A stretch of 64,000 bases of DNA, from NCBI GenBank assembly GCA_038878695.1, contig JAVZVD010000001.1, positions 372,001 through 436,000 on the forward strand. The letters are read 5' to 3'. The notes beneath the pieces were generated by a model. It was given only the letters and a program-made list of their open reading frames with translations. It did not search any database and had not been told where the DNA came from. Below, one piece after another: positions 28,758 through 30,806 of the stretch. The stretch's first letter is position 1, and each line of letters begins with the position of its first letter. The stretch comes from Fervidicoccaceae archaeon (lineage in GTDB: Archaea > Thermoproteota > Thermoprotei_A > Sulfolobales > Fervidicoccaceae). Position numbers and translations under genes: made by a program.

Positions 28758-29162
28758 TTGAGCGTATACCAAGGCAGAGATTCTAAGAAGCCCTCGGGGG
28801 GCCTGAGGAGGAGGCCTTACAAAGTTAAGCGCAAGCATGAGCTCGGGCGCTTCCCTACGCACACCACGGTCTCGAGAGAGCACGTTGTCGTGGCTCAGAG
28901 AGTGCGAGGCGGAAACTTGAAGCTCAGAGTCAAGAAGGCCAGCGTGGCGGTGGTGTCTGATCCCAGGACCGGCGAGAGCAGGGTCGAGAGGATTCTCAGA
29001 GTAGTTGAGACGCCGTCTAACAGAGAGCTGGCGAGGTACGGCGTGATAGTCAAGGGCTCTATCATCGAGGTGGAGAGCGGGCTAGCCGTGGTCACCTCGA
29101 GACCTGGGCAGGACGGCGTGGTCAACGCTGTTCTGCGAAGCGAGCGGGGACTCGCTCGTTGA
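28758..29162 (+). CDS. rps8e: 30S ribosomal protein S8e
   Basis: Small-subunit ribosomal protein found in archaea and eukaryotes. The 134 residues open with VYQGRDSKKPSGGLRRRPYKVKRKHELGR, diagnostic of S8e, followed by VVAQRVRGGNLKLRVKKASVAVV and VIVKGSIIEVESGLAVVTSRPGQDGVVNAVL. The start is TTG with GGAGGAG about 10 nt upstream; a TATA-like CTAATTAATC lies at 28697-28706. The stop shares a TTGA junction with srp19. Confidence 0.96.
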   Translation: MSVYQGRDSKKPSGGLRRRPYKVKRKHELGRFPTHTTVSREHVVVAQRVRGGNLKLRVKKASVAVVSDPRTGESRVERILRVVETPSNRELARYGVIVKGSIIEVESGLAVVTSRPGQDGVVNAVLRSERGLAR

Positions 29163-29461
29163 GCTCGAGGAAGTACAGAGGAGAGCGCATATGCATTTGG
29201 CTCGCGAGTCTCGATTCAAAGCTGAGTCGAGGTCGGGGACGCAAGATCTCATTGAATAAGTCCGTGCCAAGGCCCTCGCTGACTGAGCTAGTGGAGGCGG
29301 CTAAAGCCCTCGGTCTGGATCCCGTCGTCGAGGAGAAGCGATACCCGAGGGCGTGGATGAAGGTCGGGAGGGTCTGCGTCAAAAAGCTCGGGCGAAGGAG
29401 CGAGATTCTTGCTGCGCTAGCCAATAAGATAAAGGAGATGAGGGGGACGGCCCGCGGCTGA
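29159..29461 (+). CDS. srp19: Signal recognition particle protein SRP19
   Basis: Binds SRP (7S) RNA and promotes assembly with SRP54. The 100-residue protein shows ICIWLASLDSKLSRGRGRKISLNKSVPRPSLTELVEAAKALGLDPVVEEKRYPRAWMKVGRVCVKKLG, the complete archaeal SRP19 pattern (the R-G-R-x-I loop and the late KxYPR segment). The TTG start overlaps the S8e stop by four bases. No SRP RNA gene is recognisable in the window. Confidence 0.95.
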   Translation: MSSRKYRGERICIWLASLDSKLSRGRGRKISLNKSVPRPSLTELVEAAKALGLDPVVEEKRYPRAWMKVGRVCVKKLGRRSEILAALANKIKEMRGTARG

Positions 29462-29629
29462 TTAATAAGAAGCCGAGCTGGGGATTGCCGAGGACGGCCT
29501 AATAGCCGACGCAGAAGCCTGAGACGCTCTCGCTAACCGGGTAGAGGCTGAGGAAAGTAATACGTGCAGCTTCTCTTAAATCGCAGGCTACGACTGCGAT
29601 AGACACCGTTAGGACCGAGGTCGTGATAC
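29462..29629 (+). promoter_or_regulatory. 168-nt gap with two promoter-like boxes; possible small RNA between them
   Basis: GATTAATAAG at 29460-29469 and CTCTTAAATC at 29574-29583 are TATA-like. The second sits about 50 nt before gar1 and is probably its promoter. The first would start a transcript near 29492 with no open frame behind it; 29492-29570 contains small inverted repeats (CGGC/GCCG, CTCT/AGAG) but no clear C/D, H/ACA or tRNA signature. I cannot say what it holds. Confidence 0.3.
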
Positions 29630-29632
29630 TTG

Positions 29633-29926
29633 ATGAGACTCGGAACGATCGAGAAGATCTTCAAAGACAAGATCCTCGTCGTGAAGCTGGATCCACGACC
29701 TCGGCCTCCACCCATAGGGTCTCCGGTCTTCTTGATCGATTCCACAAGGCTCGGCAAGGTCCTCGACATCGTGGGCCGAGTCGACGATCCGCGAGCCCTC
29801 GTGCTCCTCACGACAAAGATCGAGCGGATCCCTCTACAGGGTAGAAGCGTCTTCGTAGAGGCGCGAGGGAGAAAAGAGGAGGAGAGAGGCGGAGGCGATA
29901 GAGTTGCTCGCCGCAGAAGACGATGA
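29633..29926 (+). CDS. gar1: Gar1, H/ACA ribonucleoprotein subunit
   Basis: Accessory protein of the pseudouridylation complex with Cbf5, Nop10 and L7Ae. The 97-residue protein has the core beta-barrel: RLGTIEKIFKDKILVVKL, PPIGSPVFLIDSTRLGKVLDIVGRVDDPRALV, then an Arg-rich tail. The start could be TTG 29630 or ATG 29633; the ATG matches the family. It overlaps the TFB gene by 23 nt, an arrangement (gar1 next to tfb) seen in other archaea. Confidence 0.92.
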   Translation: MRLGTIEKIFKDKILVVKLDPRPRPPPIGSPVFLIDSTRLGKVLDIVGRVDDPRALVLLTTKIERIPLQGRSVFVEARGRKEEERGGGDRVARRRRR

Positions 29927-30806
29927 GGTCTCGTGCGAGGAGGGGCATCTGATCATAGACGAGACGCGTGGAGAGCTAATATGTAGCTCCACGGGCGAGA
30001 TCGTCTCAAGAGTCGTTGATCTGGGGCCCGAGTGGCGCGAGTTCTCGTCCGAGGACAGAATGGCCAGATCGAGGCAGGGGAGTGCTCGCACGAACTTGGT
30101 GCACGACCACGGGCTCTCTAGTATCATAGATTACAGAGACGTAGACCGCCTCGCCCCCACCAAGAGATTCGAGGGTCGCAGGCTCCAGAGACTCCAGATG
30201 GCGAGCAGAGTAGCTGGGCACCGGAGACTAGTCAGATCGCTTCAAATCGTCAAGAGGGAAGGCGAGAAGCTCGGCCTCCCTAGGAGAACTCTCGAGACAG
30301 CTGGCGTGATGATGAGGAGAATCATCAGCAAGGGGCTCGGCAGAGGAGCCATGCTGAGCGCCTACGTGGCGGCGGCCCTCTACGCATCGAGCAGAGTGAC
30401 AGGAGTCCCGAGGCCGTTCTATGAGGTGGCGAATAGCATTGGGGTCCCACTCGAGAGGGCCCGCTATGCCTATAAGAGGCTGGTCGAGCTCGAGGGGGGG
30501 AAAATCGAGGCCAAGATATACAAGCCGTCGGACTACGTGGCGAAAGTCAGCAGCGTCCTCGGTTTCTCGAGCGAGACCGAGAGGTTGATGTACAGGCTCG
30601 CCAGGGCTGCCGAGAAGCTGGGTCTAGTCCACGGGAAGTCGCCGACCGCGGTGGCTGCTGCCGTGGCCTACATAGCCGGTGGGGTGCTCGGCGAGAAGAG
30701 AGACCAGAAGACTGTGGCTCGTTCTCTCGGAGGATTCACCGACGTGGCCGTGAGAAACAGATACAGAGAGCTGATCGATAGACTCTACATCGAGGTCTCG
30801 CTCTGA
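29904..30806 (+). CDS. tfb: Transcription initiation factor TFB with degenerate zinc ribbon
   Basis: General factor that binds TBP-DNA and recruits RNA polymerase. The 300 residues contain the B-reader/linker (LGPEWREFSSEDRMARSRQGS, HDHGLSSIIDYRDVD) and two cyclin repeats (about 110-205 and 206-300, e.g. FYEVANSIGVPLERARYAYKRLV, SPTAVAAAVAYIAGG). The N-terminal ribbon is odd: instead of CxxC...CxxC it reads CEEGH...CSSTG, so ligand positions 14 and 30 are Gly and Thr; only Cys11, Cys27 and a nearby His15 remain. The TTG start follows GGAGGCGAT. The rest is well conserved, so the gene is not decaying. Confidence 0.93.
   Translation: MLAAEDDEVSCEEGHLIIDETRGELICSSTGEIVSRVVDLGPEWREFSSEDRMARSRQGSARTNLVHDHGLSSIIDYRDVDRLAPTKRFEGRRLQRLQMASRVAGHRRLVRSLQIVKREGEKLGLPRRTLETAGVMMRRIISKGLGRGAMLSAYVAAALYASSRVTGVPRPFYEVANSIGVPLERARYAYKRLVELEGGKIEAKIYKPSDYVAKVSSVLGFSSETERLMYRLARAAEKLGLVHGKSPTAVAAAVAYIAGGVLGEKRDQKTVARSLGGFTDVAVRNRYRELIDRLYIEVSL

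Follow-up and report, generated by a model that had tools for sequence, protein, structure and literature searches.

A transcription factor B with two cysteines in its B-ribbon, a state common to nearly its whole archaeal order

The zinc site of the B-ribbon is ancient and widely conserved in transcription initiation, and TFB1 of Sulfolobus, which was sequenced long ago, is a much-used crenarchaeal system for in vitro work. Descriptions of archaeal and eukaryotic TFB present the B-ribbon as a conserved zinc ribbon (PMC2246294, PMC7289017), and the zinc ribbon has been called conserved in all TFBs (PMC2246294). Zinc ribbons with missing cysteines have been described in other, different transcription factors, namely Sulfolobus TFE-alpha, which keeps three of its four ribbon cysteines and is reported to be zinc-bound (PMC4495717), and TFS3 (PMC5715097). 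In the open literature we found no paper giving lost ligands as an order-wide state or proposing a disulfide in a TFB ribbon, and the Sulfolobus ribbon may have been described in older work.

The TFB analyzed here is encoded in a 64,000-nucleotide stretch of the genome of a Fervidicoccaceae archaeon (the window). Sulfolobus-type TFB1, the SUI1-linked main TFB, has the same two-cysteine ribbon, the same spacing, the same B-reader motif and the same cyclin repeats as the window TFB, but the window TFB is Gar1-linked and its first knuckle reads CEEGH, where that of TFB1 reads CPPD. Sulfolobus-type TFB2, the probable Gar1-linked orthologue (for example L096), shares the Gar1 neighbour with the window TFB; however, L096 and most of its relatives retain all four cysteines (Cys4), and in the core tree their grouping with it is not firm. 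The TFBs of the rudiviruses ARV2, ARV3, MRV1 and SSRV1 also have a two-cysteine ribbon, but in these the chain starts near the first kept cysteine.

The open reading frame at 29904-30806, whose translation contains CEEGHLIIDETRGELICSSTGEIVSRVVDLGPEWREF and whose N-terminus is MLAAEDDEVSCEEGHLIIDETRGELICSSTGEIVSRVVDLGPEWREF, encodes a full-length TFB that belongs to the Gar1-linked (TFB2) lineage and has the two-cysteine B-ribbon standard in its order. The TFIIB-repeat model PF00382 matched it in two stretches with 64 bits, against a cut-off of 23.6, and in alignments with other TFBs the B-reader/linker segment GPEWRxF...RSRxG...HDxGLS was present after the ribbon, in agreement with the first-pass annotation, which had described the B-reader, the linker and both cyclin repeats as well conserved. 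That annotation had also reported a ribbon short of two of its four cysteines, and this was confirmed: C11 and C27 are the only cysteines among the 300 residues, ligands 1 and 4 of the canonical CxxC...CxxC set are absent, and the TFIIB zinc-ribbon model PF08271 scored 20.2 bits, below its cut-off of 29. Gar1 lies directly upstream of TFB in the window, in the other family members whose flanks were examined, and in distant archaeal lineages. The gene order at 28758-29926 is S8e, SRP19 and Gar1, followed by the TFB, and the starts are overlapping or closely spaced.

Features of the TFB gene and its Gar1 neighbour (positions in the window)
Feature	Position	Strand	Basis
Gar1-type protein, 23-base overlap with TFB start, marks Gar1-TFB locus	29630..29926	+	PF04410, 35.4 bits
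TFB (TFIIB homologue), 300 aa, Gar1-linked paralog (TFB2 lineage), TTG start	29904..30806	+	PF00382, 64 bits; gene context
Glu8, most simply the position of lost ligand 1	29925..29927	+	CxxC spacing to ligand 2; column with 17 different residues among variants
Cys11, most simply homologous to canonical ligand 2, kept; putative partner of Cys27	29934..29936	+	Cys in 87/87 variants; same distance to Cys27 as between the matching cysteines of canonical TFBs
B-ribbon with two cysteines, CEEGHLIIDETRGELICSSTGEIV...	29934..30010	+	sequence, alignment; AF2 strands 16-19, 24-27, 33-36
Cys27, most simply canonical ligand 3, kept	29982..29984	+	Cys in 87/87 variants
Thr30, most simply the position of lost ligand 4	29991..29993	+	Thr in 74/87 variants
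B-reader/linker start (GPEWREF...RSRQG...HDHGLSS), conserved	30024..30110	+	alignment with other TFBs
First cyclin (TFIIB) repeat	30228..30485	+	PF00382, 32.4 bits
Second cyclin (TFIIB) repeat with VRNRY helix-turn-helix	30510..30776	+	PF00382, 36.5 bits

The chance that a sequencing error, a wrong frame or a wrong start conceals a canonical CxxC in this gene is negligible. No cysteine is encoded between the preceding in-frame stop and the start (RREGEKRRREAEAIE), so that no alternative start restores CxxC, and the seven further genomes sampled from the family all show the two-cysteine state, which argues against a sequencing error; every sampled TFB of the family and both TFBs of this genome are in the same state. 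An error or an upstream start giving a canonical ribbon, which the first-pass annotation had named as fatal to its observation, was therefore looked for and not found, and the observation stands.

A genome search gave a second TFB at G000:C2:70717-71652, a TFB1 that adjoins SUI1 and aRF1, so that the window TFB is not the only TFB of its genome, as had been considered. The two proteins are 36% identical, and the ribbon of the second, CPPDAVVFDPERGEYICAATGEII, is also without ligands 1 and 4. Since both TFBs are of the two-cysteine kind, initiation seems to run without a standard ribbon in this organism, which is what had been proposed for the case of a single TFB.

The spacing between the second and third ligands is 16 in 61 of 72 canonical TFBs, and the two kept cysteines are likewise 16 apart in 73 of the 87 two-cysteine variants. 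Because of this shared spacing, C11 is most simply homologous to ligand 2 and C27 to ligand 3, and by gapless homology the lost ligands are most simply the first and the fourth, not the second and the fourth. The rudivirus TFBs, in which one or a few residues precede the first kept cysteine (three start at MSC or MNC, one at MESEIIC) and which have little or no chain at the position of ligand 1, fit a loss of this ligand. The lost ligands had earlier been placed at Gly14 and Thr30. Thr30 agrees with the position of ligand 4, but the other loss is moved from Gly14 to Glu8, the position of ligand 1, because the earlier assignment requires a three-residue deletion and is probably one cysteine off.

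For the survey of relatives, TFB genes were sampled from genomes across the window's family, order, class and phylum, and 166 with adequate core length were counted. A single-sequence scan of genome contigs with the window TFB returned no relative, but an alignment query did find relatives. The two-cysteine ribbon is common to nearly the whole Sulfolobales-like order, including Sulfolobus-type TFB1. Among the 110 TFBs sampled from the order (families coded f1-f11), 87 had two cysteines (xCCx), 16 had Cys4, four had none, two had three, and one row was truncated, whereas Cys4 was found in all 56 outgroup TFBs, from 27 families outside the order. Comparison with relatives, which the first-pass annotation had recommended, thus showed the same state family-wide and order-wide. 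Named loci with the two-cysteine state include Candidatus Aramenus, Staphylothermus and Pyrodictiaceae records, and Cys4 was seen in those TFB loci of Euryarchaeota, Asgard, Bathyarchaeota and Micrarchaeota records whose ribbon was inspected.

Family f7, which presumably contains Ignicoccus hospitalis (f11, for its part, looks to us like Sulfolobaceae), has one detectable TFB, with a Cys4 ribbon, in its genomes (G013 and G023: L086 and L078; G042: L288). It is the sole family of the order whose main TFB has a Cys4 ribbon. The core tree places f7 inside the two-cysteine group with weak support, and on this tree the two-cysteine label needs 11 changes, four of which are forced by well-supported branches.

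At a pLDDT of about 75-83, AF2 predicted three strands in the window ribbon from a general alignment and still did so from two-cysteine sequences alone. The best PDB matches of the predicted ribbon were the Pyrococcus furiosus TFB ribbon (1pft) and the human TFIIB ribbon (1dl6), which have four zinc-binding cysteines, whereas the window ribbon is without ligands 1 and 4. The first of these, 1pft, was the best match (E 0.026, prob 0.94) and shares 37% identity, a level at which the sequence contributed to the structural match. No solved structure of a two-cysteine TFB ribbon was found.

In the two-cysteine ribbon the normal three-strand fold is probably retained, as is the usual docking on RNA polymerase. 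This ribbon has no Cys4 zinc site, and its knuckles are probably pinned by a C11-C27 disulfide with one cysteine from each former zinc knuckle. We lean towards this reading of a metal-free ribbon that folds and docks normally and in which the disulfide replaces zinc; the absence of metal and the normal docking are what we infer. The disulfide is favoured by the retained cysteine pair, by the predicted fold, by the presence in the window's genome of a protein disulfide oxidoreductase scoring above its curated cut-off, and by reports that intracellular disulfides are common in thermophilic archaea, including Sulfolobus (PMC3177088). Furthermore, TFB1 of Sulfolobus solfataricus binds RNA polymerase and directs transcription in vitro (PMC2246294), so that two-cysteine ribbons appear functional, and in several genomes one RNA polymerase must presumably serve both Cys4 and two-cysteine TFBs, which suggests that the docking surface does not depend on the zinc form. 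The earlier proposal that the fold must be held in another way is upheld, the standard ribbon being indeed missing.

The disulfide oxidoreductase was present in all 44 genomes tested, including those of the Cys4 relatives (family f7 and the outgroups), and it was rejected as the reason for which families changed.

Alternatively, C11 and C27 might bind zinc in an altered site, completed by two non-cysteine ligands (Asp, Glu, His, Thr or water) or by one that RNA polymerase provides. Exactly two ancestral cysteines are kept, one per knuckle, and Asp or Glu occupies the C2+3 position and Thr the C4 position in 55 and 74, respectively, of the 87 variants, as such a site might have it, but no candidate ligand is conserved, as C2+3 may also be G, V, S, I, N, T, L or P, and the first knuckle is one to three residues shorter in 14 of the 87. 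The viral TFBs, with their starts so near the first kept cysteine, have little or no upstream chain to supply another ligand. An altered zinc site thus appears unlikely. His15 of the window TFB, the histidine beside position 14 for which a role as zinc ligand had been raised, was rejected as a substitute ligand, because the alignment showed that this position is not His in relatives.

The two kept cysteines are strictly coupled in the sequences sampled. C2 and C3 are Cys in 87 of 87 variants and belong to a set of only eight columns that never vary, while 17 different residues occur in the C1 column and Thr fills the C4 column in 74 of 87. The second paralog of f5 (L107, L108, L112 and L123, forming one clade with an SH-aLRT of 99) is without cysteine at all four ribbon positions and has Asp at position 3. 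No complete sequence was found in which only one of the kept cysteines is lost; the lone xxCx row, L019, is truncated. Cysteines kept or lost as a pair are what a bonded pair would show, the paired loss resting on one evolutionary event. It is also conceivable, if improbable, that the metal-free ribbon has free thiols, that strand packing and docking on RNA polymerase hold its fold, and that the cysteines persist because they pack in the core or touch RNA polymerase. The f5 clade, which still keeps the RGEYI...TG pattern, indicates that a TFB can exist without either cysteine; however, that both cysteines are invariant and disappear together is easier to reconcile with a covalent bond between them than with independent roles in packing. 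In two second-paralog ribbons (L098 and L102) three cysteines are present and ligand 4 alone is replaced or missing, which suggests that these are possible intermediates and that ligand 4 can go first.

Sulfolobus TFB1 belongs to the group whose ribbon cannot form a Cys4 site. If the disulfide does replace zinc, the docking step of initiation would be zinc-independent and could respond to the redox state, and reducing agents or zinc added during purification would matter for experiments. The odds seem even that in almost the whole of this hyperthermophilic order a single disulfide replaced the B-ribbon zinc, that the ribbon then spread between paralogs by gene conversion and into rudiviruses, and that recruitment of RNA polymerase is zinc-independent and possibly redox-sensitive.

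Two TFB loci were found across the order and beyond it, SUI1-TFB (TFB1) and Gar1-TFB, the latter being that of the window. The second, more divergent TFB has Cys4 or three cysteines in f8, f9, f11 and part of f10, and it has two cysteines in f1-f4, parts of f6 and one f10 genome. Because TFB2 is canonical in several related families, the two-cysteine ribbon probably spread between paralogs. The state probably appeared first in the SUI1-linked main TFB1 of the order, and the second TFB of several lineages, including the window's family, would have acquired it either through gene conversion confined to the ribbon, with TFB1 as the donor, or through parallel loss.

In the f10 genome G016, TFB1 and TFB2 (on G016:C52 and G016:C38; L041/L025 and L072) share an identical stretch of 110 bp, which begins directly behind the first Cys codons and extends past GPEWRAFTP, whereas their flanks and cores are highly diverged (cores 35% identical). 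In G026 and G035, sister genomes of G016 within f10, TFB2 is still Cys4. Ribbon-only identity, diverged cores and the Cys4 state in the sister genomes are best read as ribbon-limited gene conversion in G016, an assembly misjoin being the alternative.

In the two-cysteine TFBs outside the TFB1 clade, the ribbon is closer to the TFB1 of the same genome than the core is, and Glu follows T-G in 21 of 24, compared with 0 of 72 Cys4 TFBs. For the window TFB and its own TFB1, identity is 0.51 in the ribbon and 0.33 in the core, and we infer conversion of the window gene itself. An independent loss of ligands 1 and 4 from the TFB2 of this family, with no conversion, concerns origin only and is compatible with any of the mechanisms above; it is a serious possibility, though one we would put somewhat below even. 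The ribbon of the family's TFB2 is only 43-60% identical to that of its own TFB1, and the first knuckle is shorter in the TFB2 of some family members, both of which fit parallel loss, but the excess of ribbon over core identity, the shared Glu after T-G and the converted ribbon of G016 speak for gene conversion. The ribbon apparently behaves as a module exchanged among paralogs and viruses, a point relevant to how docking on RNA polymerase can be uniform despite a diverging promoter-reading core.

The rudivirus TFBs of ARV3, MRV1, SSRV1 and ARV2 (L291-L294) carry the two-cysteine ribbon and are 24-30% identical overall to the TFB1 of the window's genome. Their ribbon is nearly identical to that of host TFB1 and sits on a strongly diverged core.
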